Assembly: GCA_034509925.1 (NCBI GenBank)
Contig: CM067538.1
Location: 768,501 to 832,500 of the forward strand
Direction: 5' to 3'
DNA: 64,000 nucleotides
From: Hirudinaria manillensis
Lineage: Eukaryota; Annelida; Clitellata; Hirudinida; Hirudinidae
A program made the translations under genes and the position numbers. The notes under the pieces were generated by a model that searched no databases, was not told the origin of the DNA, and worked only from the letters and a program-made list of their open reading frames with translations. Shown here piece by piece: positions 18,301 to 61,670 of this stretch (within the stretch, counting starts at the first letter, position 1; the number at the start of each line of letters is the position of its first letter).

Positions 18301-20439
18301 TCAATATCCGAACTTCTCGTTCAGTTTCGTTCTTCCGTCTCCGGTCTGATCCTCCGGAGGAAGCCAGGACGGTTCTTCCGGAAGGGACTTCAGCAACTCC
18401 TCTTCGGTGCAAACTTCGGGGAAGACTTTCGCGCTCGGACGATCGACGGACGAGGGAGTCGACGGCTGAAGACTCTCGTCCGTCTTCGACGACGTCCTTC
18501 TTCTCTTCTTCGGGTCGGACTTCGGAGTCGACCGGGTCGGTTCTCGTGGGAGAGACTCGATTTCTTCGTTTTTAGACTTTGGTTCTTCGGGACTGGCTGG
18601 GGCTTCAGCCTTTACTGGCAGATCAGTAGCGGGAAGGGAATCCAATTTAGGAGTCGGACTCTCGTCTTCTTCTTCTTCCTCTTCCTCTAAGTCTCTCTCT
18701 TCCTTGACGAGTGCACCGGACTGATCCTCGGGCCTGGGCAGGTTCAGTCTGCTGAATTTGTTTTTTCCAAAGAGTGCCAAACCAGCCGGCTTCTTCTCGG
18801 GAGGATTCGGGGCTATCTTTACCTCAAATGGCTTCGCTATGGCAACCAGCGACTCCAACTTGGTCCTCACGTGCTTGAGTTCGGTGAGGCGCGCCTTCAT
18901 GGTCATCTTCGTCTTGACGCTGAGTCCTCCGAGCTTCACGGTCTTCATGAATGCGTCGAGGGCGTCGCATTCTTCGTCATCGCCCGTCATGTCGGCCTTG
19001 GCCCTTCTGGTCAACTCGTCGTCTTTCTGAAGGCTAGCCTCTATTTCGGCGATCTCTTTGACCGCTTCGGCGAGCTTCACCGTCAGGCTCTCGTGCGTCT
19101 CGGACTTGCCAGGCATGTTCTTCTTCATCCTCTTCTCCCTCTTTTTCTCGAGGTCCCCCGTCCTGTCGAAGTAGCTGTCCTCGTCGCTGTCGTAGTAGTC
19201 GTTCTCCGCCCAGTCCTTCTTCCTCTTCTTCGATCGGGACTCGTGCGTGGCCTGCCTGAGGAGACCCATCTTATCGAGGATCCTGCAGGCTTCAAGAGCA
19301 CAGGCCACGATGGCTTCTCGTCTCTTGCCGTCCACCGGGACTTCTGCGTAGACCGGCCTGCCGCTAGAAGAGTCTATCGGAAGTTCCAGACGACACCTCT
19401 TCCTCGAACCGAGTCCGAAAGTGGAGTTGTCTTCGATGAACTCGTAGTCTGGGGCGTCGAGGCCCTCCCTCTCAAAGAAACCTTTGATGGATTTCTTGGG
19501 GTCGTCCAGGTACAATGATTCGTCGGTCAGGGACGAATCTGCGTACGGGTTCTCCGCCTCCGGGTTTTCCTCGGCCGCGTCATCGTCCATGCCCCAGGTG
19601 CAGAACTCGTTTCGCTTGCTGAACGCTTCAGACACGTTCTGCCTCTCGCTCTCCTGGTCCTCCGCCATCTCCTTCATCTTGCGAGCCAGTTTGGCCTCTT
19701 CTTTCAATCTCGTCATCTCTGCAAAACTCAGTTCTGTCTCTTGGTCGCAGTCGTCCGGGGGTCCGTCGACTACGAAGAGTCTCGTGCTGCCTCCGAACTT
19801 GATGACGTAGCCAACCCTCAGACGGACGAACACCTCTGGCTTTATTCTCTGCTTGTTCACAAAGGTTCCATGAGTGCTATCGAGATCGTATATGTACCAT
19901 CCGGTCAAAGGCTTCGACTGATCGTCATCTTCTTTCTGAAGTCTGTACTGAAATACTGCATGGTGTCTCGAGATGGTAGGGTGGTCCATCTGATGGTCAC
20001 AGCTTTGCAACCTTCCGAACACAAACATAGACTTCCCCGCGAGAGAAACTTCGTCTATATTCGTTCCCTCTTTGATCACATCTAGTTTGTACTTTCCGGA
20101 ATCTTCGCCAATACCACCCCACGATGGCTCCTTGTATGAAAAAGTTGAAGACGTCTCCAGCTGCTTCAGTTTCTCAGCTGGAGAAATTGGTTCCTTTCTC
20201 CTACTCTTTTCTTGAACCTTTTCTGTGTTATTTGTCTTAGAATCATCTTTGCTTTTGTCAGGTACTATTTTCTTTTCTGAAACTTTCGAATCTGACGATT
20301 CACTTGCTATGGCATTTTTCTTCTTTGCGCGTAGTCCAATCAAAGTCGGCACTTTGAACCCAACTTCTTTAACATCGGATTCATTTTGAATATCTTTCGA
20401 ATCATCCATGAGTCTTCTCAAGTTATTTATTCCCGGCAA
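18301..20439 (-). CDS. SLC4A1AP: Kanadaptin (SLC4A1AP), FHA-domain protein, single exon
   Basis: A 712-residue nuclear FHA protein that in vertebrates was named for binding the kidney anion exchanger and is found with splicing/RNA-processing factors. The FHA domain is at about residues 118-226, with the phosphothreonine-binding loops GR (142-143), SRHH (157-160) and STHGTFVN (188-195). The double-stranded-RNA-binding-like domain follows at about 313-397 (DDPKKSIKGFFEREG to ACRILDKMGLLRQ). Then come coiled-coil and basic/acidic low-complexity stretches, including a Glu run near residue 590. Length is close to the roughly 740-800 residues of vertebrate orthologues. The whole protein is one open frame with no intron, unlike its neighbours PPIP5K and SNAPC1. 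An alternative start is Met11. It is head-to-head with SNAPC1, with 698 bp between start codons. Confidence 0.95.
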   Translation of the reverse strand: MPGINNLRRLMDDSKDIQNESDVKEVGFKVPTLIGLRAKKKNAIASESSDSKVSEKKIVPDKSKDDSKTNNTEKVQEKSRRKEPISPAEKLKQLETSSTFSYKEPSWGGIGEDSGKYKLDVIKEGTNIDEVSLAGKSMFVFGRLQSCDHQMDHPTISRHHAVFQYRLQKEDDDQSKPLTGWYIYDLDSTHGTFVNKQRIKPEVFVRLRVGYVIKFGGSTRLFVVDGPPDDCDQETELSFAEMTRLKEEAKLARKMKEMAEDQESERQNVSEAFSKRNEFCTWGMDDDAAEENPEAENPYADSSLTDESLYLDDPKKSIKGFFEREGLDAPDYEFIEDNSTFGLGSRKRCRLELPIDSSSGRPVYAEVPVDGKRREAIVACALEACRILDKMGLLRQATHESRSKKRKKDWAENDYYDSDEDSYFDRTGDLEKKREKRMKKNMPGKSETHESLTVKLAEAVKEIAEIEASLQKDDELTRRAKADMTGDDEECDALDAFMKTVKLGGLSVKTKMTMKARLTELKHVRTKLESLVAIAKPFEVKIAPNPPEKKPAGLALFGKNKFSRLNLPRPEDQSGALVKEERDLEEEEEEEDESPTPKLDSLPATDLPVKAEAPASPEEPKSKNEEIESLPREPTRSTPKSDPKKRRRTSSKTDESLQPSTPSSVDRPSAKVFPEVCTEEELLKSLPEEPSWLPPEDQTGDGRTKLNEKFGY

Positions 20440-21137
20440 GACTAAATTATTGAAATCAGTTATTGAATTGCGTTAGTTCTCAAACATCACTTGTAAACAA
20501 AAGATATAAAACCCGGCAAAAAGGATTTTTCTTGGTCAAATAATTTTTTGACTTTCTCGTAAAAATTTAGAATCATTTAAATCATCTTTTGTGAATTAAT
20601 AAATTTAACTATAAAAACACAACACCAATTCAGATATGGAACAACTGGAATAAACAAAGTGTCTGCTATACTACATTTGAAACAGTGTTCTCCGAAGTAA
20701 TTTTGCTTTGAAAGAACAATTTTAAAAGGGCCTTTATTCACAAATTGATGGGCAAAGTAGTTCACAGTAGCAATCTGGATTGAGATGTTGTTTCAACTCA
20801 ACTTCAACTGCAACCTTATGTGGGATTCTTAAAATGATCATGAAGCATGAATTGAAGCGCTCACATCAAAAGGTATATTGCAGCCATTGTTAATTTGCGA
20901 AACGCTAAATCTGAATAATTTCAATTTCCCTAAAATGAAAATTAATTGTCGATTTGTTCGGCAAATGTGTAGTTTAAAATTATTTAAAAATCTATGTAAA
21001 AACTCATAAAACTCATAGTTTTTGGTAATTTGTTCTTCATAGGGATTTAATAAATTACACTTTTGAATTTAAACAAATTACTTCACACTTAAAATAAACT
21101 GATTTTAAAAAGACAACTGCCCATAAAGTACAACGCG
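20440..21137. promoter_or_regulatory. Divergent promoter region kanadaptin / SNAPC1
   Basis: A 698-bp AT-rich gap between the two divergent start codons. It must carry both 5' UTRs and both promoters unless upstream non-coding exons exist elsewhere. I identified no specific factor site. A minus-strand 62-residue open frame (20577-20765) resembles nothing known to me. Confidence 0.45.
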
Positions 21138-24033: not shown

Positions 24034-24311
24034 AATTACTTTACGTCCAAATGAGATCGTTAAAAATTTTTTAAATTATTAGAAATTTGAACATAATGAT
24101 TGCTTTAAAACAAACACGAAAATTTGTCGATAATAAAAAAAAATTAATCGAAATTTTAATGACATTAAAAATTTATTAAATAAAAATAGTGCGTGCTATT
24201 CAGAATCTTTCGCTATCGTGATATTGGAGCTAGACTAACGTTTACAAATCATAAGCACAAAATCATAAATACAAACAACAAAATCTTTAGAAGCATTCGA
24301 CAAAATACAAA

Positions 24312-25730
24312 ATGTCCAAAGTAGATATGAGCATGGAACTCAATCGCAACTATAAGGAACAGCCCAAAAGGGAAGTACGAAGCCGAGATAAAAGTAGAGA
24401 AAGGAACAGGGACAGAAGTAGAGAGAGACGCAGAGATAGAAGCAGGGAGAGACACAGAGATAGAAGTAGAGAGAGACATAGAGACAGGAGCAGGGACAGA
24501 CATAGGGAACGAGGTAGGGACAACAATAGATATTCCAGAAGAGATAGATCAAGAAGTCGATCTGAAGTTAAACAGGTTCAACTTGAGAGGAAACCAAACA
24601 AATTCTGGGACGTCCCCCCTGCTGGCTTCGAAAATGTCTCTGTCATGGAGTATAAGGCCATGCTCGCCAGCGGTCAAGTACCAGTACCCCAGGTCAACGT
24701 CACGGGTCCGGCCGTGCTCAGCACCAACATACCATTCGTCGGCAACGCAGTCAGCAGACAGGCGAGGAGGTTGTACGTTGGAAACATTCCGTTCGGCATA
24801 GGAGAAGAGGAAATGAAGATCTATTTCAACGAGCAGATGAAAGTCAGCGGTTTGAGTCAGACAGGAGGCGATCCTGTCATTGCCTGTCAGATTAATATCG
24901 ACAAGAACTTTGCCTTCCTCGAGTTCAGGTCGGTCGACGAGTGCACACAAGCCATGGCCTTCGATGGTCTACTGTTTAACGGACAATCATTGAAGATAAG
25001 AAGACCGAGGGACTACCAACCACTGCCAGGTACCATGGAGAATCCATCGGTTGCTGTTCCGGGCGTTGTCTCCACTCAAGTCAGTGACAGTTACGACAAG
25101 CTGTATATTGGTAACTTGCCCACCATAGTCCAAGAAGACTTTGCCAAAGAACTTTTGACATCTTTCGGACCTCTGAAAGCCTTCAATCTTGTCATGGAAC
25201 CAGGATCTGGACTTTCCAAGGGTTATGCTTTCTGCGAATATCTGCACCCTCAGGATACGGAAAATGCCATTCGTGGTCTGAACGGCCTCGTTGTTGGCGA
25301 GAAAGGCCTTATCGTTCAGAGAGCCATCCTTGGTAAAAATCCTTTGGCCCACGGTGGAATGTTGACAACCATGCTCATACCCGGTGCCGACATTGACGAA
25401 TTGAAGAATAACATTCAGGCAAATTCGTATCCCGTTCTCTGTCTCTCCAACATAGTGACGGCCGAGGACTTGGACAATGAAGAGGATTACGAGGAGATCA
25501 TGGAAGACATACGAGAGGAATGCGGAAAGTTCGGAACGGTCATCAGTCTCGAAATCCCCAGGCCTATTGCAGGCATCGAGGTGAGAGGAGTTGGTCAGAT
25601 CTTCGTCGAATTTTCAACCAGCGAGGAGTGTCAGAATGCTGAGAAGAATCTCACCAATCGAGTATTTAACAAAAAGAGAGTCGCTACTAAGTTCATGGAC
25701 CGTGACACTTACCAGAGGAGGGATTTTTGA
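24312..25730 (+). CDS. U2AF2: Splicing factor U2AF large subunit (U2AF65), intronless copy A
   Basis: Nuclear pre-mRNA splicing factor that binds the polypyrimidine tract, U2AF35 and SF1. 472 residues: RS domain at about 24-85 (repeated [10 protein letters not shown]), U2AF35-binding linker around Trp99 ([21 protein letters not shown]), RRM1 about 152-232 ([20 protein letters not shown]), RRM2 about 262-341 ([17 protein letters not shown]) and the C-terminal U2AF-homology motif about 373-468. It ends TYQRRDF, without the terminal Trp of vertebrate U2AF2. The frame is uninterrupted, whereas U2AF2 is split into many exons in most animals and other genes here are intron-rich; this suggests a retrocopy that became, or replaced, the working gene. 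It is almost identical over most of its length to copy B (26632-27999), which lies inverted 0.9 kb away. Reading frame, domains and the polyadenylation signal are intact. Confidence 0.97.
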   Translation: MSKVDMSMELNRNYKEQPKREVRSRDKSRERNRDRSRERRRDRSRERHRDRSRERHRDRSRDRHRERGRDNNRYSRRDRSRSRSEVKQVQLERKPNKFWDVPPAGFENVSVMEYKAMLASGQVPVPQVNVTGPAVLSTNIPFVGNAVSRQARRLYVGNIPFGIGEEEMKIYFNEQMKVSGLSQTGGDPVIACQINIDKNFAFLEFRSVDECTQAMAFDGLLFNGQSLKIRRPRDYQPLPGTMENPSVAVPGVVSTQVSDSYDKLYIGNLPTIVQEDFAKELLTSFGPLKAFNLVMEPGSGLSKGYAFCEYLHPQDTENAIRGLNGLVVGEKGLIVQRAILGKNPLAHGGMLTTMLIPGADIDELKNNIQANSYPVLCLSNIVTAEDLDNEEDYEEIMEDIREECGKFGTVISLEIPRPIAGIEVRGVGQIFVEFSTSEECQNAEKNLTNRVFNKKRVATKFMDRDTYQRRDF

Positions 25731-26631: not shown

Positions 26632-40574
<13,943 letters not shown>

Positions 40575-49900: not shown

Positions 49901-51497
49901 AAACAAAACTAAGAGATGTTGAATCTCTCATGGATGCGTCGTGCAAATTAATTTCTTTAGATTTTTCTTTTTAAGGGTGAGTCATGGAGAAATTTGTCGT
50001 CTGCCACGTGCCTTTTTTAAGCTTTGTTTGGGAGCGTTTTAAAAATATGACAGGGTTTTTCAGAAGCGAGCGTCACGTGTGATCCTGAATCAACGTGCCA
50101 ACCCACATTTTATTTTTGTTATTATCGCTCCACCATCTTTTTTGATTACAAATCTCTTCATGATTTCATCAAGTTAAAAATAAGTCGTCAAACTAATTTC
50201 CAAGACTATTAGAAATAATAATTTCTTGCATAATTATTTTTTTTAAACTTTTTTTGGGAGAGCAGAAAGGGAGCTTCTCAATGAAGAATGTATGTGCCTT
50301 CATTGCCAATGAAAATGGCTGGCAGTATTATTCATAAAATTAAAAAATTTTAATAGCTGTCCTTTTGAATAGGAAAAGAAAATGTTATTATTGTAATTCC
50401 CCGAGAAGTGGTCCAAATTGATGTGTGCACAAGTTTTTGGTATTATAATTAATATTATTGGCTATATTAATAATATAGCAATATAATAATAATATTGGAT
50501 ATAATTATATTATATAATAATAATTGTTATATTATATGTATCTATATATATATTTTTGGCAGGATAATATATATAATATAATAATTATTATCATTATATA
50601 TTATATATATATATTATAATTTTAGGAGGTGTTATAATATTTTAATTTGGTTGATGGGATTTGAATTTATAAATTTAGCAACACGAATTGTTAGACAATA
50701 TTTATGAGTTAATATCAAAGTGCTTTCTTCTTTTAGCAACAATAATATTAAATTTTTTAAAATCTTATTATTGGAAAATCCGGCGAAGTCGCAAAAAGTC
50801 GAGTGGTAAAAATAGATGTTTTTCAACGTCCGGCCAATCAAAAGGGGGAAGTGTTGTTTACTTGGTTGTGAGTGACTTTAGGCTTTTCCAAAGTTGCCAA
50901 AATAGAAAGCTTTCGAGAGGAATGTTCGATGGCCTGGCATTTATCGAAGCTTTGGATTTGATGAGTTTCGACGCAATTGGGCATTCGACGCACATCTTTT
51001 TGGGAATTTTTATGATCATACTTCATCATCTTGGCCCTTTAAGTCAGGCCTAAGCTTCACTAAGAGAATGGATTTGTTATGAACTTTGAAGCGTTTCGAG
51101 AATGGTGGATGATGAATTTTTATCTTCCAAGTTTTTTGAGGTACTTTTGAAAGTGAAACCATGGAGATGCTTTGCTTATGCACTGAGAAGCTTTGGCACG
51201 GACTAGATTCTCATTTTATCTCTTGAATATCTATTTTATGCATCATAGAAGTTCGTGAACATCTGCTAATTTGTATCATTGCATGGCATTATATGGCACT
51301 GCAACAAATATTGATATAATAGGTACACTTGATGTAGAGTTAGCCAAATTAGATCATAAGCTCTAAGTGTAGATACAACCTCTTTTATTAGCAATGCCAA
51401 TTGTAATATTAATAATATCATAAATTAAATTATTAAGACAAAACAGTAATAACAACAAAGATCACAACAAACGTCGTTTATTCTCCATCAGTTCCGC
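46994..51497. other. Long gene-free interval before the IRF gene
   Basis: It begins with a GAT/GGT repeat (about 47000-47085) in the borealin-like 3' UTR and an AATAAA at 47198-47203, then more than 4 kb of AT-rich sequence. Short open frames such as 49553-49750 (-) and 50688-51053 (+) resemble no family I know. About 50440-50640 is a dense TA/AT palindromic tract. The TCTCCATCAG before the ATG of the IRF gene looks like a splice acceptor, so non-coding first exon(s) and the IRF promoter probably lie in this interval. Confidence 0.6.
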
Positions 51498-54400
51498 ATG
51501 GAGTCCTCGGACGACGACAAGTCGAAGGGTTCCGAGCCCGACTCCCCAAGGAGCGGCCACGACCTCTCCGGTCGCAGCCACTCCTTTCCCTTCAGGGACG
51601 ATGACCGTCCCGGCAGGGTGCTGCTCAGGCCGTGGTTGGAGAACATGCTCGAGTCCAATACCATCGAGGGACTGCAGTGGCTCGACAGGGAGAAGACCAT
51701 GTTCAAAGTTCCCTGGAAGCATCGGAGCAAGAAGGACTGGTCGACCAGGCATAGCAGCGTCTTTCTTGTTAGTAATGATGATGATGATGATTATTATTAT
51801 TGTTATTATTATAATTATAATTATTGTTGGCAGTAGTACCGATGGTGTTAATATTGTTATAGTATAGTTTAAACACATCCTGAATTTCACTGTACATACA
51901 TTTGATGATTCCAAATTTGGTGGTATTTCTGACACCCTAGTTAATTGGAACAATTAATCATAATTTAATGACATAATTATAGTCGGTCAGATTAATATTA
52001 TGAGCAAAGTTCAAAATGTGGAACTTCTGTGATTTAGAAGAAGTGAAACAATTATTTGGTAATTTCCTGAATCAGCCTGGGAATTCCAAAAAAAAGTTGA
52101 AGTTTCAATTTAGGAGCAGAGATTATTGTCAGACATTGTAAAGCCTGGCTCCTAATCTACATTTGCAAGAAGCGTACTTAAGACATGACCCGATGACGAG
52201 TTATTTTGCACCGTCATTCCGTCATTCGGATATTTTGAGCCAAAAGGAAAGTGAAGAGACTTCTTGCAACACGAGCCTTTTAGTTCAATATTAACGATCG
52301 ATAAAATCAAGAATTGCAATAAAACTCAAATATAAATTTTATTTCTTTGCCTTATGACTCCTAAGTTCTAATTAAATGATTATGATATTGCTGGCTTTTC
52401 CCAGGCATGAATGAGCATTACAGTAGTAGTGGTAGTAGCACTGTTGAAGTAGTTTTGTTGAAAGCTAAGCTGGTTTAGCCATCCAAATTGTTTCCATTTT
52501 ACAAATTAAATGAATAGAATACATCGTCTGAATTGTTTTAAAATTCACTAACGCCGGATCAAAACTTGGAACAGGAGTGGGCCAAAAACACGGGACGGTG
52601 GAACAGGGGAGACCCGACCCCCAACTACGCCCAGCTCAAGACGAGGCTCAGGTGCGCCTTCAACAAAGCTCCAGACATCGAGGAGATGAAGGGCTACCAC
52701 TCGGCCCAGGGTGAGGAGCCTTACAAGGTCTACAGATTCAAAAATAGAAAAGGTTGGTCGTGAAGTTACCATCTCTCGTCCTCTGCTTTTATTACTTTTT
52801 TTAATCGATATTTGTTACATTATTATTTATTATTGCTCTTTAATTTGCTTCGTTAAGTGAGAATTGTTTTTGAATTTATTTGGAGTAAAATGGATTAAAT
52901 AATGGTACTATAATTATAATTATAATTTTTTCAATCACCATTTTACTTCGTTAAATAAGGATTATTTTTCTATTTATTTGGAAACATACGGCTTAATTAA
53001 TGTTAATGTGCTTGATGCTTAATATGTGATTCTTAATAATAGGTATAAATAGTTTAATAAATTTGGTAAAGGCCAAAATAGTTAGCATTCATGTAGTTGT
53101 ATACAGTTGTATGTAGGATTGATCAATACTTGTATCATATTACTAATTGTATCGTATTATTACTTTCATCGTATTATTATTTGTATTGCAGAGTGTTTGG
53201 CCAATAAACTCAATCAAAGTAGCAAGAACTTGCCTAAGGTGAGCATCTATATTTTTTGGTCTTCCACTAGTTTGGGCAAGTCATGATTAATATTCATGAG
53301 ATGTTGATTGTTGAAATTATTGTTATTGTTGTTGGTCCGTCTGCAGGACTAATTATTTGGGCAAAAAAATTATGGCATTACTTATATTTCCCATGCATTA
53401 TTATTATTATTATTGTTGTTATTATTACTATTATTATTATTAATAATTGTTATTATTATTATTGTAATAACCTGGGGTCCTAATTATGGAAGTTAGGTTT
53501 ATTTAAAATGTTCGGATGGCCTTTGGAATATTTGCAATGCCCATTTGCCTAGGTCCTGCAATATGTTATCTCTCTCTCTCTCTCTCTTTCCCTTTTCTCG
53601 ATTACCTGATTTGTCGAGCTTCATAACCAAACCTAACCAAAGACCCTGAACAGTACCCTTACCAAGATTAATTATTGATTAGATATTATAATTGACGGGC
53701 AAATTGAAATTTAAAAACCGTTTTATGATCGAAATCCCTTTGAGCTGCGTCACGACAACACGGACGGACCGCCGTCCTAGTACTAGACGGAGATACTGCT
53801 AAAAGGATGTGCGTCGGTGACTTTATTTAAGTCCACTTTTACTGCCTGACAACCGATTATGAAAGGGCGGATCGAAATTCAATCGCTCGGCGAAAGAAGT
53901 AACCTGATCGGTAGTTTTCCATTTTTTTTTTCAGCGTTTCTTTGGATCCTCTTCCGGGAGAGGCGGCAACCAGGGAGGTCTGTTCGAGATCAAGAGGGAG
54001 AGGTGCGAGGACGAGGCGATGGCCGCCGGGGACGGCGACTCCTTTTACCCCGACGGCACCCAGGAAATGCAAATACTTTCCTTCAAGGACCAGGTTGGTT
54101 TTTCGGCTCAGTTTCGACACCGTCGACGGATCTTATATCGTCTTTTATCGAAGATTTGGTAAGAGGTTACTAACGTCACAAACTCTGACACTACTTGACG
54201 GTCACTTAGCGACATTTAAGGTGCCTTAACTGGTGTTAATTGGCCACTTGGCTTAATTGGTTGTTGATGCAACTGCCAATCAGATAATTCGAGTCGAGAC
54301 TTTTATGAGAACCCGTCCCGCAACCGGTGAGGCGTAACTTTGGATGATTATTAGCCACCGTGTTAATCGTTTTAGTTTTTATCATTATGTTTTTAATGGA

Positions 54401-57400
54401 CGTTATTAGGGCTGGTGATGTTTTAAGTTTCGGGGCTTTTGGAGACATTTCGTGTGAATCATCGTAATGATTGTTTGATTGTCGGTCGGGTTAATTAGAG
54501 TTGTGACGATGCGACAACCTTGGAGCGAGCACCTTCGTCTTGTCTGGTTCTGACCCCTCGAAGCACTTAGGGACCGGTTAGGCCCAAAGATATTCGTTAG
54601 GCTCGGATTCGAATGATTTGGAAATGAAAATGAAGAGTTTGAAGTTTGGTTGTTTTGTCATTGCACTGTTGAGTATAAAAACTGTAAGAGTGAGAAATGA
54701 GTGAAGAGTATTTTAACTGTTGTAGTTGCTATAAGATGTGAAGTTAGGTATGCTATTAGCTACCATATACTAAAAAGGTATGTATACTATTAGCTATATA
54801 TCCTAAAAGTTATATGCTATACGATATATATATACTAAAAAGGTGTAAGGTATACTTAATCATATGAGGCAGATGTGCTTTGAGTTGGTGCCTTTGTATA
54901 AGATTACCATTTAATGTTTGTTAGGTCTATGGGCTAAGTCCTAGGATGGTAATACCACATATCTTAGAAAATGATTGAATCATATATCACAAAAAATGAT
55001 AAATAAAATAAAATTCTGTTGCAGGGTGGAGAGATGGACGAAGAACTCAAAGGTGATCAAAGGAATAGCAACTGTGAGTAATTTGGCACATTAATGATCT
55101 AAATGATGATGACGATGATGATGATGATGACTACAATGATGACGATGAGAACGCTATGGCATTGTCAGCGCTTGGTGGTAACATCCTAAATAGGTCGAGG
55201 GATTTTTATTGCAATAGCAGAGAAGTGAGGACTCTGATTAACGGTTGCTTATATAATAGTTCGGTTTTGTTAAGGCGGAGACTACTTTTCTTTTACTATT
55301 CTTTCTATCTCTTTCTCTCTACATCTCGCTCTCTCCTAACCCCAATTGTACGAATAGAACTGTCATTCTCAGACCTTCAATGCAAGCCAAGCGAAGCTCT
55401 CGGAGCAGTTCAGACGAAAAATCCTGTGATTAATAATGTCAGGCATTAAAAATGTTGCGTAACTTGAATAACACACATTTAGGTATTTAGGCCACATAGG
55501 TATTTAGGTCAGTTTTAGGTATTTAGACTCTTCCTCTCTGTGTGTGGCTGATGATGATGTCATTATTAGTTTCTTTTGTTTCTCATTCTCTTGTACGAGA
55601 GCATCGGACATATGCTGCAAGATGTGCCAGACGATGGCGATTTTTTAAAACGATGTCGTCATGGAGACGTCAGAAAGCTTCGCATGTAATCAAGATGGTC
55701 CTTAATTCTTCATTCCAGGTGTCTCCCCCGATGAGAGGGAAACCAAGTTCAATCCAGGTGTCATACCTCTGACAGTAGAGATGTTTTCCTCTTCTGTCAG
55801 CGACGAGTCTGACACGGAGAACGAAGGATCGAAGAGGTGAGAAATGCTTTCTTCGAACAGACAGATTGGATTTAGTGTCGCTTGACCATCGTCACACTGA
55901 GCCAGTTACTTTGAATGCCTTCTTTGATGGGTGATTCATAACAGATGTTATTGCATCCGAGCGGATGGCTGGTTTTCAGAATGCACCCAGTATCATGATA
56001 CTCTACTTCATTTTCACATCATGTGATAATATCACCTTTAACGATTCGAATTTTGGGCATAATGATTACTTTTGGATTTCCCAAAGTCTTTCTAGTCTTA
56101 ACCTTAAAGTCGATCGCCTCCCCTCAGGTCGAGAGGTCACAGGGGTCGGCACGGCACTCCCAAGGGTCAGAAGCATCAGGAGTCGCTGGTCGAACCTCAG
56201 AACGGACATCTCGTCCCCTTGAAACAGCATCAGGTCCATCAGAAGCAAAACGATTTTGGCAGCAACCAACAACCGGGCGTGACGGACGGGGGTCTCGGCA
56301 CGGTTCAGACCAACGGCGCTTCCGGAGATTCCAAAGAGTCGTCTGCAGGCGACGAGAGGGGAAATTTGGATTTCCTCACGGTGGCTTCCCTCTTTATGGA
56401 GGCAGAAAAGATTCTCCAGAATAAGAAGGATCCCATCACTGTCGGAGGAGAAATTGAAATGAAACAGTGCATCAAACAGGAAATTCCAGAACAGATGACC
56501 TCTGAAGGTCAGTTCTTGATGTTTTTCTGATTCCTTTCCAAGCGTACTTTTAAGCATTTCGCTTTTTATGGAAATGCCTAGAACTAATTCGATCGTGACT
56601 CGACCAAAATGCTCGGCCGAGTTTGGAACGGACGTCGTCTGCATGTTCTTATCTGAATCGTGCTTACCTATAGAAATAATTCTATGTCCAAAGCATGCTA
56701 AACAAACCTCATAATCAAGCTTATTCTGCAAATAAATTCGGAACGCACCCAAAGGAGTGTTTTTTTTTAAATGAAAACAAAGAAACTCAGCATTCCTTAT
56801 GCTCTGGGCGTATTGGGTGGCCTTCAGCCGACACCGTTGTTTATTTAAGAAAAAAAATTCTGCACGATTTTTTTCCTCAATTTCCCCCGCATCACTCGTG
56901 CCCGTTGCTCGGTCGCTCGCTGCTGCCAGCACGAGTGATGAGTGCCTAGGAACAGCTGTTTGCTGCTTCGCTACAGCCTTCCGACTGCAAAAGGGAAAGT
57001 GAAAGCTGCAGTCGTGAATTCCCAATTTGCCTCAAAGGGAAGATAAATTGCAGGATCCCCTGTCCAATAAATTAAGTCACAAAATCATCGGGTGAAATTG
57101 ATGAAAATGTTTCACCAAAAACCGCTTGTTTTCTTTTCTAAGAAAACATGGATTCGAGTTGAGCTTAGTCGAGGAAGTTGAGGTTAAAAGAACCCCAAAG
57201 TCACAGCAAATGTCTCAATTGTTATGCAAAATCTGTCCGAACAAGAAATAGCTCTTTGACAATTTATGGAGTGAAACTCCATAAATTTTTGCCTGCATCT
57301 CGAGTCTTTAATAAAAAAATGTTTGCGTATGGGAATAGTTGAAGCTACATACAAGTGTGTTCGTAGTTGTTGTTTTGTATCGCTGCTCCAACATAATCAA

Positions 57401-60400
57401 AACGACCGACGTTTGTTTCCTTGTTATCATTCGTTGTCTCAGCGGCCTTTCAAATGCAATGAGGTGTTTTCAGTTGGACTTCATTTTTCTTTCAAAGGAG
57501 ATCCAGCCAACAATTCTGAAGAAAGCATAAACGACATTGCTGCCAACGAACCAGGTAAAGTCTCTTTAATTGAAACTTACATGATTATTTATGTATTTAT
57601 TTATTTATGTATGTATGTATGTATGTATGTATGTATGTATGTATGTATGTATGTATGTATGTATGTATGTATGTATGTATGTATGTATGTATGTATGTAT
57701 GTATGTATGTATGTATGTATGTATATCACCAACTTATAAATTCATTATTATAATAATACAGTTTAATCTTGAATGGCTTATAAATTATTGTTGTCATGTA
57801 TTTAATTTCTATTTTAATTCAAAGTAATAAAAGTTATAATATTAACTAACACATACTTATTTCATCAAATAAATCATCTTTTACAGGAAAAGAAAAACAA
57901 AGTACGGGTGTGCTCCGGTCTTTAGACTCTACGTTGAATGGCGTCCCGAAGCCCAGCCTCCCGCCCGTCTCTTCTGCGAGCGGCCACGGATACCCGCCGA
58001 AACTCCCCAAATTGGTACCTCTGTCTTCGCTCAGGAATTTTCCTCTGTTGAACAACGATCAGAAAGGCAACGCGAGCAGTACCCTGCTCTCTCAGCTATC
58101 CAAAATCAGAATGGTGAATGGCAACCTGCTGCACCAATCCGTGAAACCTCAGGTCCGGTTGAACCCCTCTCCGGGCACCCCCTCCTTAACCCTCGGAGGA
58201 CAGGCCGTGGCCATCCACAGACCGGATTCGGCGACCCATTTCCAGCCGAGACTTTTGATCCTCCCCTCCTCCTCCTCATCTTTCCTTCAGGGCTTCTCCG
58301 CCCCTACAGTGGCCAATCCGGCCAGGCCCGTCAATCCGGAGAGCGTGAGGATCGTCCTGGGAAAGTTCCAGGCCCCTCAGGTAGTTGGTCCCTCCGTCGC
58401 AAAGGACTCCGGCTTTGGCAGCCAATCCCTGCCTTCCCTCATCATGCTGTCCTCTGCAGCAGAGGCAGCAGAGTCTGCCACCTCCATCGCCAAAGCTCAG
58501 GCCACTCTTCCGGGCCTTCAGGCAACTTTGCCAATCAACGGCACTTTTCCTAAAGACGCCAGGAACGTTGCGATCCCAGGAAACGAGTCTCCCATGGCAA
58601 CGAATGACGTCAATGAACTCGGAAACGTCGCGAAAGTCGAGGCCGAGAGTTGCGTCGTGCCTGCTGCAAAGCCCGTTGCCAGTACAATCCCCCAGAAGGA
58701 GGTTTCCATGGACATCGATGCCCAAGAAGGTCTGACCGATTTTTTCACCGTACCTTTGATTCGGCGGTAGGAATGCGAAATTGCCGACCGTCAAGTTTTA
58801 TTTAAAAATAATATTAAAATTATATATTAATATTAATTAGTAATATAAAGTAAGGGTAATAATATAATTTCCTGTCATCATAAGAGTGATAAATAAGTTG
58901 GCCATCTTAGTAATGATTCACATCAATATGACTACAAATGCTATTACTCCACCTTTAGAAGCCCTGGATCTTTCCTCTGCCACTCTGAAGCAGAAGGAAC
59001 CAGAGCAGTCAATACCTGACGACCTTTCAGACAAGTTGGAGATCGACGAAGTGCCAGCACCTACGTGCAGCTCTGCCAAAGATGATGCCAGCTGTAAGCA
59101 GATCACTTCTGATGATGGTGCAGTGGATATCAATGCCAGAATGAACGGTCAGTTAAAGTCTCCTGATGGTTTATGATGACATCTAGTGTCAGATGTTTAA
59201 ATTAAAATTAAATTAGAGTCTAAATAGTTAAGAATTATGACTTCACCAATTAACGTTTCTCGAACCGTAATCGGTCAGCATATATTCCAACTGTTGAGAA
59301 TGAATTTGTAGAAGCAACGACTGCTCTTAGAGAGGCAGAGGATTTGACGACGGACGTCAATCCAAAATGTCTGAAGCTGCTGAAGGGGGTCATCGAGACC
59401 CTTAGGACGTGCACCGTCGAACTGAGCCAGTGGCAGAAGTCCTTGAATTCCGAGAAGGATGTGCTCCACTGGAGGACGAAGCTGCTGGAGAGCGAGGAGG
59501 AAAAGATACAACTGAAGGTCCAATACTACGGCATCACGCAAAAAAAGGACGAACCGACCAGTCTCGGGGATCCGCATCCCAACGAGTCCGGAACGACGGG
59601 AATTAACAAGGATATCTCCAAACCGAAGCAGCCATTTCAGGTTGGCAGCTCCATCCAGGCATCGAATGACAAAGTCTTAGATTTAGCAAAAGCTCAAAAT
59701 CCATCGATTGCCAGTAAACAAAGCTCTCCTCTCGGACTTTTGCCCCAGAAGGTCGTTGGAATGTCGAACGTAAATGCCGGTCCCATCAAGGTGACCGTGG
59801 CACCGAGCACCCCTTCGCAGGCCCCTCCGCAAGCCCTGACGGCCTCGTCCAAATCTCCGAAACCGATCAGAGTGATCAACCTTAGCAAGCCCTCCGAACC
59901 TTGTGGCGTGGTTTATCCGATGCAGCAGGACAGAAGCAAGGCCCCACAGCCGAGACCTTCCACTCCCGCCCTTTCTCTAGTGAACGGCATGAAACTGGCC
60001 TGCTCTCTGAAGAGCGCGGGGCCCCAGTCGGAGGTCGCGGGCGCGTCTCAGTCGTCGCCGTCTTCGTCTCCTTTAGTTCTCAACATCCAGAGTCCCTTCA
60101 ACCACTTGAAGGTCGTCAAGATAAACAGGACCCCGTCGACGGACGGCGGCTTGCAGTTTTCGGGCGCCCCCTGGTGTCCCCCGACCGTCCTCTCCTCGTC
60201 TTCTGCCAAATCAAAATCTTCCGACGTCGACGAACTCAAAGGGGCGGACGAACGCCTCCGTCGGGATTCCGACCTCCCCGACGAGGGGCCCGGGGTCGTC
60301 GAGTCCTCGGCGAAAAGGTTCAAGCAGTCGCCAGAGGACACGATGAACTTGTCAGCGACGAGCGGCAACGACAATCAGACCTCGAAGGAGTACGATCAGT

Positions 60401-60426
60401 TCAAAAGGAAATATAAGTTCATGTGA
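51498..60426 (+). CDS. IRF-domain transcription factor with a very long C-terminal extension, 11 exons
   Basis: Exons 51498-51767, 52575-52752, 53192-53238, 53935-54093, 55025-55073, 55719-55836, 56128-56507, 57498-57554, 57887-58729, 58959-59147 and 59312-60426 join in phase to 1,134 residues. Residues 43-149 form an interferon regulatory factor DNA-binding domain: the five-Trp repeat is complete (W46, W61, W73, W81, W92), and the recognition helix LKTRLRCAFNKAPDIEE keeps the Arg116, Cys117 and Asn120 equivalents that contact GAAA DNA in vertebrate IRFs. The intron after SVFL sits inside the domain. The rest is Ser/Pro-rich and acidic with a predicted coiled-coil stretch at about 764-840 (LLKGVIETLRTCTVELSQWQKS), ending DQFKRKYKFM. 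No IRF-association domain is recognisable. Exon 9 uses an AAG|GTCTGA donor, because reading through would meet a stop at 58768. The true start may be further 5'. IRF identity of the DNA-binding domain is secure; the full length rests on phase agreement only. Confidence 0.85.
57604..57724. repeat. (GTAT)n tetranucleotide microsatellite
   Basis: About 30 perfect GTAT units in intron 8 of the IRF gene. They create Met-Tyr-Val-Cys artefact frames and are likely length-polymorphic. Confidence 0.97.
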
Positions 60427-61670
60427 ACGGCCAACAAAAAATATGGACGTCATCGTCGACAAGAATCAATTTTCAATCCCCTCCCCTTTTTTTGCCCCTC
60501 CGAACAGAACCGAGACGTGCAGTTTGCGGAAAGCGACGGAACTTCTTTCATATCTTCTTTGTTTGTCTTTTGTTGTTCTTTTGACGATTCGTTCTTTGCG
60601 TTTATTTAAGATCATTTCCGTGCAGGAGTTTGCCAAAGATCTGCGACGTGCGATTGGTTTTGCAGAGTCGCCGAAAACGTCCCCCGACCAATGATTTTCA
60701 TGAAGAAAAGTATTTCATGTCCGACAGCTTTTCGCATTATTTCTCTTTTTTTTCTTTTCTCTTGTTTTTAAATGTTCCCCGAACAACAACACTGTAAAGT
60801 TCATTGTAAAGTCAACGTGTCTTTGAATTTTGACTTGTTATGTCTGTTGGGAGTCACCCACAAAACTGATTTCCTCCTTCCATTTTATTTACCCGTTCGA
60901 CCGTTGGTCGGATCGGTCTTCGGATTGCACTTTCCCGAGACATCCTGAGCGAAGAGGGAGGACATTCCTCGTTCTTCTGCATCGTTCTGCAGATGGCCAA
61001 TTATTGCACGTTGAAGTGATGGTATTGTTGCCAAGACCTCCGAATAGCAGGGTTTCAAATAGATCTTCCTGTATGTATAGAACGGCATCGCACCCGACGA
61101 TCGGACTTGCTTCGCGAGATACCTCTGCTGCTCTCGAAACGCCGGTCTTTTCGCAAAAATCCGTCTCGGTCGTTTGACTATCGAAGCTCGCGTCACCGCT
61201 AGCGCACGCCGTCACGTCCTGGCATCGTCGAGGGTGCATTCCGACTCGTGTACTTCGATTCATTTTTTGTTCGTTCGAATCCTTTATCGATGATCGTAGC
61301 TTCGCTCCTCCGTAGTTCTCACGTCCACCGATCGATTCGAACCTTAAACTTCTGTCCGAACTCGCACGCATTCTCACGACAACTGAGTTCCAAAAAAAAA
61401 CACTTCGTACCTCCGAGAGTCTGGCGTTCGAACGACCCGAACGACGTCGGTCCTCGCCGGAGTTCGGAGGTCTCGGACGAAGGAGACGTTCTTGAGTTTC
61501 GTCGACGAGATGTGATCCTTCTTTTCAGGGACATTCGAGAGTGTGTCGAATTTTCTCGGAGAAACTCGGTCGTCTTAAAAGATCCGTCGCGCGAATGGAT
61601 TTTTTTCTCTCTGTATTTTGGCTTTAATTTGTTATGATTTATTAAAATCTTGTAAAAAAAAAAAACAAAG
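60427..61670 (+). other. Probable 3' UTR of the IRF gene
   Basis: A CG-richer stretch follows the IRF stop codon and ends near an ATTAAA (61641-61646), with an A12 run about 15 nt later. Open frames on both strands (61248-61637 +, 60889-61377 -) show no known domain. The composition change at about 61660 suggests a transcript end, but this is inference. Confidence 0.45.

Follow-up and report, generated by a model that had tools for sequence, protein, structure and literature searches.

A probable long IRF-family gene in the leech Hirudinaria manillensis, with an ordinary DNA-binding domain and an unusually long, mostly disordered tail

Gene structure

We identified a candidate gene for a long transcription factor of the IRF family in a 64,000-nucleotide (nt) stretch of the Hirudinaria manillensis genome, located on contig C13; this whole stretch is called the window here, and its positions are given without a contig name. 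On the + strand between 51498 and 60426, eleven exons can be joined in frame to give 1,134 codons with no internal stop. We take these exons to belong to one genuine protein-coding gene, which probably has a second long IRF as its paralogue in the genome, and from the sequence we put the probability of this reading at roughly three in four. The protein combines an ordinary IRF DNA-binding domain (DBD) with an unusually long, mostly disordered tail, and is an odd member of its family, not a new kind of protein. The modelled exons are as follows.

51498..51767, + strand: exon 1; start codon, acidic N-terminus and first half of the IRF DBD
52575..52752, + strand: exon 2; second half of the DBD, with recognition helix TRLRCAFNK
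53192..53238, + strand: exon 3; 47 nt, lowest codon score
53935..54093, + strand: exon 4; motif IKRE of the sumoylation consensus type, not above chance
55025..55073, + strand: exon 5; 49 nt
55719..55836, + strand: exon 6
56128..56507, + strand: exon 7; starts with a basic stretch; motif IKQE, not above chance
57498..57554, + strand: exon 8; 57 nt, skippable without frame change
57887..58729, + strand: exon 9; large, Ser/Pro-rich, residues 420-701, with a weak-looking donor, GTCTGA
58959..59147, + strand: exon 10; short, with phase-1 borders, first residues EALDLS; may correspond to exon 5 (VLDLT) of a paralogue on contig C12
59312..60426, + strand: exon 11; last exon, a predicted helical region (residues ~766-837) first, then mostly low-confidence, disorder-like sequence to the stop

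The start ATG at 51498 is preceded by an in-frame TAA (51450); the last base of the stop codon is 60426. The ten introns are 164-990 bp long and all have GT...AG borders, and all ten junctions are consistent in frame and phase. When each exon was scored by codon log-odds trained on the other ten (leave-one-out), the modelled forward frame came out on top in 11 of 11 exons. Exons 7, 9, 10 and 11 have 2-20 stops in the other two forward frames; in the small exons alternative frames are open too. When positions 51400-61000 of the + strand were scanned, coding-like segments with a score of at least 9 were confined to the modelled exon sites, with the small exons 3, 5 and 8 falling below that threshold. 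An earlier, sequence-only reading of this DNA had proposed the same eleven in-phase exons, 1,134 residues and coordinates, and the intron borders and codon frames bear it out. Exons 8 and 10 are both multiples of three, and skipping either leaves the frame intact. Intron 8 contains a long tandem TATG repeat at about 57600-57725.

The model could also have fused two neighbouring genes, one a short IRF that stops near exons 6-7, the other an unrelated gene comprising exons 9-11. Coding signal is lowest in exons 3 and 8, the weakest of the small exons (0.08 per codon over 15 codons, and 0.26 per codon), and introns 7 and 8 contain poly(A)-type hexamers, though other introns have them too. The tail has no Pfam family, and the last exon has no relatives elsewhere in the genome, where it matched only itself at E ≤ 10. 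A fusion is nevertheless improbable, given that frame and phase are kept across all ten junctions and that 10 of the 11 exons score 0.26-0.59 per codon, the highest being exon 4. In addition, the C12 paralogue described below, on another contig, has a DBD followed, in matching order, by similar large, LDL and last exons, although homology of the tails has not been demonstrated.

DNA-binding domain

IRFs are generally described as having a DBD, to which the IRF-4 branch adds an association domain (IAD) that determines partners and activation. In the window protein, the Pfam IRF family PF00605 matches residues 43-145 with E 2.6e-36 and 124.6 bits (cut-off 27), covering positions 2-104 of the 105 in the profile. 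All five tryptophans of the family are aligned (W46, W61, W73, W81 and W92), and the recognition-helix residues R116, C117 and N120 are present, as judged against the IRF1 residue list in a passage of PMC7819612. The textbook IRF domain described earlier is therefore confirmed, with the qualification that Lys121 occupies the place of IRF1 Ser87, as it does in IRF4. The recognition helix TRLRCAFNK is likewise of the IRF4 type. Both long leech IRFs have Leu in place of a further Trp, that of TWK and similar, on which the aligned vertebrate sequences agree. The DBD is interrupted by a phase-0 intron, and the hand-spliced paralogues on C12 and C7 have theirs at the same position. Plasmid records searched with the DBD gave no match at E ≤ 0.01.

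A probable second long IRF on contig C12

At C12:2727580-2699119, six hand-spliced GT-AG exons with fitting phases would encode 1,007 residues in a gene of about 28 kb. The modelled forward frame scores best in all six, and the only Pfam family found is IRF (1.4e-35), with nothing else at E ≤ 10. The DBDs of this paralogue and the window gene are 72% identical and are joined in the tree with support of 97/94. Downstream of the C12 DBD, the two large exons are the two top-scoring coding segments on that strand within 50 kb.

The two genes also resemble each other in layout, a likeness noticed after the fact. Each has its DBD spread over two exons with the phase-0 split at the same place, and then a large Ser/Pro-rich exon. 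Each has a short exon with phase-1 borders that opens with [AV]LDL[ST] (EALDLS in the window, VLDLT on C12), and last exons of 1,115 nt (window) and 1,118 nt (C12) that open with a Trp-containing helix-like segment. This common layout is suggestive, and since the exons of the C12 locus can be joined to give a long protein of similar order, the window gene probably has a long partner in the genome. The C-terminal segment FKRKYKFM of the window protein (60400-60423) shares 4 of 8 residues with WKRRMKWM near the end of the paralogue (E 3.8, not significant). Searched against the genome, the last exon of the paralogue found itself and two further matches, at E 0.34 and 0.45.

Several observations weigh against a single long gene with a long partner. 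The exon 9 donor GTCTGA is weak-looking, which would allow a shorter form; it is the most downstream of three GT sites that leave the required phase in 58400-58775. Retention of intron 9 would lead to a stop at 58770 and a protein of 713 residues, with exons 10-11 lost. Homology between the two tails found no support in BLASTP of the last exon (E 3.8), and shuffled sequences matched the tail alignment score in 41 of 2000 cases for the helical part, 112 of 500 for the last exon, 210 of 1000 for the penultimate exon and 9 of 300 for the part from exons 3-9 set against exon 4 of the paralogue. The C12 tail exons are linked to the C12 DBD by phase and layout alone, and because about 16 kb lie between them, this join is probable and not shown.

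The predicted helices of the tail count in favor of the long-gene reading, the low confidence of their model and the motif counts against it. AlphaFold, run on exon 11 alone as a single sequence, gave helices at segment positions 2-13, 17-43 and 47-73 (block mean pLDDT, the predicted local distance difference test, of 55-78) with another short helix at 355-366. The model is of low confidence, with 269 of 370 residues at pLDDT below 50, a mean of 45.9 and a predicted template modelling score (pTM) of 0.20. The sequence-only reading had noted one coiled-coil-like segment; the tail has one predicted helical region, at residues ~766-837, at this low confidence. The helical segment had no match of weight in Pfam (Ipi1_N at E 0.059, under the cut-off) or in the PDB (best E 0.2). 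Counts of tail motifs (sumoylation type, CtBP type, pLxIS, nuclear localization signal and TP/SP) were not clearly above those in shuffled sequences. The rarest counts, in a test of seven patterns per tail without correction, were those of P.DL[ST] in the window tail (53 of 1000 shuffles) and LDL in the paralogue tail (36 of 1000). Since motif counts are near shuffle level, we claim no CtBP or SUMO mechanism.

The IRF family in the genome and branch placement

PF00605 had 12 matches in the genome, which group into six loci: the window gene, the long paralogue at C12 2.72 Mb, and loci at C12 2.02 Mb, C7 4.12 Mb, C3 0.33 Mb and C4 0.32 Mb. Those at C12 2.02 Mb, C3 and C4 come from a coding-segment scan; the junctions of the C3 and C4 genes are approximate, and the C4 gene entered the tree without its N-terminal part. 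The gene at C7:4109001-4119000, on the minus strand, is a short IRF whose six hand-spliced exons encode 369 residues, with a tail that looks IAD-like by eye; it could serve for trying out ways to recognize IADs in leeches. On the minus strand at about C12:2.015-2.018 Mb, downstream of the IRF at C12 2.02 Mb, are segments that look by eye like leucine-rich repeats and seemingly belong to another gene.

In a DBD tree of 12 rows, four leech genes group at 86/86 with IRF4 outside. Removal of the long-branched IRF3 and IRF7 gave a tree of 10 rows in which the long pair, the C12 2.02-Mb gene, the C7 gene and human IRF4 are grouped at 93/93, an unproven placement; IRF1, IRF2, a fish IRF and the leech C3 and C4 genes are on the other side of that split. 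On this tree, the DBD of the window gene leans to the IRF-4 branch, and for this reason the loss of the IAD may be real.

The gene could instead be an ordinary member of the IRF-1/2 branch, in which the absence of an IAD is normal and the tail alone is enlarged. According to PMC3308963, which cites Nehyba et al., the IRFs of cnidarians and bilaterians fall into an IRF-1 branch that lacks the IAD and an IRF-4 branch that carries it, and according to PMC9334734, Aplysia has two IRF1/2-like genes without a SMAD-type domain and five genes with one. Single-sequence scores against chains with a single IRF domain also favor this placement, with IRF2 at 86.1 bits and IRF1 at 85.0 above the best IRF4 chain at 76.0, as does the failure of the long pair to join IRF4 in the 12-row tree. 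On the other side, the long pair has the IRF4-type helix TRLRCA.NK, whereas the leech C3 and C4 genes have the IRF1/2-type ANFRCA. The 10-row tree places the pair with IRF4, and forcing it to group with IRF1/2 costs 6.5 log units, with an approximately unbiased test value (p-AU) of 0.074, so that the grouping is not rejected. We regard membership of the IRF-1/2 branch as a serious alternative, though on balance an unlikely one.

The tail and the association domain

The 985 residues of the tail are 44% STPGNQ and 3.4% WYF. Its most hydrophobic stretch of 160 residues has a WYFILMVC fraction of 0.30, compared with 0.37-0.38 in the IADs of IRF3, 4 and 5 and 0.40 in the C7 tail segment. The corresponding figures for the most aromatic stretch (WYF) are 0.056 in the window tail, 0.10-0.11 in the three IADs and 0.08 in the C7 segment. 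The tail of the long C12 paralogue reaches 0.29 in hydrophobic residues, but its aromatic maximum of 0.119 is as high as in an IAD.

In the full window protein Pfam found only the IRF domain and nothing further at E ≤ 10, in a search in which the HMMER filters discard most weak matches. A genome-wide search with the IAD family PF10401 gave no match at E 0.001 and one sub-threshold match elsewhere (E 1.82); the same search detected the domain in 0 of 14 control genomes and has no shown power here. A hidden Markov model (HMM) was built from four IAD sequences of solved structure and run against the window and C7 tails with 500 shuffles of each, and the 15 best rows listed were all shuffles. Alignment to the IAD HMM with hhalign gave a probability of 0.1 per cent for both tails; the C7 trace touches the expected place of the IAD, without significance. 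Because Pfam and the IAD HMM likewise miss the IAD-like C7 tail, a missing match says little, and composition is the better argument of the two. As far as sequence can tell, it argues against a hidden folded IAD.

A highly diverged IAD could still be concealed in the tail, for example in exons 7-9, in which case the protein would work as a normal factor of the IRF-4 branch to which disordered sequence has been added. We consider this very improbable. That the C7 tail escapes both profile searches is a point in its favor, as is the IRF-4 leaning of the DBD in one tree out of two. The tail maxima of 0.30 and 0.056 are below those of the IADs of IRF3, 4 and 5 and of the C7 segment, and the hydrophobic figure of the C12 paralogue is low as well, yet its aromatic figure is IAD-like. 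Our results support the earlier view that no IAD can be recognized in this long IRF: none was detected by profile search and tail hydrophobicity is low, while the profile test itself is weak.

Comparison with known IRFs

Known IRFs are put at about 300-520 residues in the earlier reading. The window protein resembles the IRF-1/IRF-2 subfamily in DBD identity (39.6% with IRF1 and 39.8% with IRF2, over 106 and 108 positions) and in having no detected IAD of the IRF-4 type; it differs in its length of 1,134 residues and in its IRF4-like recognition helix. With the IRF-4 branch, which carries the IAD PF10401, it shares the helix TRLRCA.NK, and it leans to that branch in the 10-row tree (93/93, unproven); unlike the branch, its tail has no detected IAD and is un-IAD-like in composition. 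The long C12 IRF is similar in DBD, in its length of about 1,000 residues and in exon layout, but it has six exons instead of 11 in a gene of about 28 kb, and its tail is not demonstrably homologous.

Published lengths are 362 amino acids for an IRF of the shrimp Litopenaeus vannamei (PMC4602278) and 476 for one of Schistosoma mansoni (PMC2194728). Both have an N-terminal IRF DBD, as the leech protein does, but are less than half as long. IRF1 carries a domain termed IAD2, according to a passage of PMC7819612. Since IRFs without an IAD are already described, in the IRF-1 branch and in Aplysia, its absence alone is not new. The suggestion that the window protein is exceptional is weakened by this described branch and by the 1,007-residue C12 paralogue. 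None of the literature matches listed was on point for annelid or leech IRFs; public predicted proteins were outside the scope of the search, and long IRFs may be known among them.

Neighboring genes and other genome observations

Ten open reading frames of the window were searched for families; three had none and one had only a match below the cut-off. Other features of the window are as follows.

419-856, + strand: PPIP5K N-terminal domain (Pfam)
18304-20469, - strand: FHA-domain protein (Pfam), which we take to resemble kanadaptin
31184-31384, + strand: class I tRNA synthetase domain (Pfam)
39403-39624, + strand: anticodon-binding domain (Pfam)

The last two domains are perhaps parts of one glutamyl-prolyl-tRNA synthetase gene. 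Two inverted RRM proteins, at 24291-25727 (+ strand) and 26635-28023 (- strand), are 94% identical over 397 residues and are probably a recent inverted duplication; presumably they are akin to copies of the U2AF large subunit.

Across the genome, a single hirudin-family match passed the Pfam cut-off, at 33.9 bits, and it is interrupted by a stop. For the homeobox, 13 of the 52 matches listed, on six contigs, were at least 78% identical to an Antennapedia-type query. This distribution agrees with the rearrangement of Hox genes that PMC11371463 reports in a leech.

Proposed function and significance

The long leech IRF would bind GAAA-type IRF elements and may recruit its partners through short linear segments of the long disordered tail, in place of an IAD. 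The helical region at residues 766-837 could serve as a partner contact, possibly as a dimer or as a contact to a cofactor; no particular cofactor is supported. A role in innate-immune or developmental gene control, as for IRFs elsewhere, would be plausible. Interferon homologues are said to be confined to vertebrates (a passage of PMC7819612), and interferon-like proteins have been claimed for the oyster (in an abstract).

More tentatively, the two leech genes might represent a distinct class of the IRF-4 branch, in which the folded IAD was lost and a disordered tail of roughly 850-985 residues, the [AV]LDL[ST] motif and the C-terminal helical module took over partner binding. We think this doubtful. 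An IRF pair of about twice the usual size and without an IAD would test, in a non-vertebrate animal, how far IRF function depends on that domain. The practical interest is moderate, and the finding mainly shows how freely IRF tails may vary outside the vertebrates.

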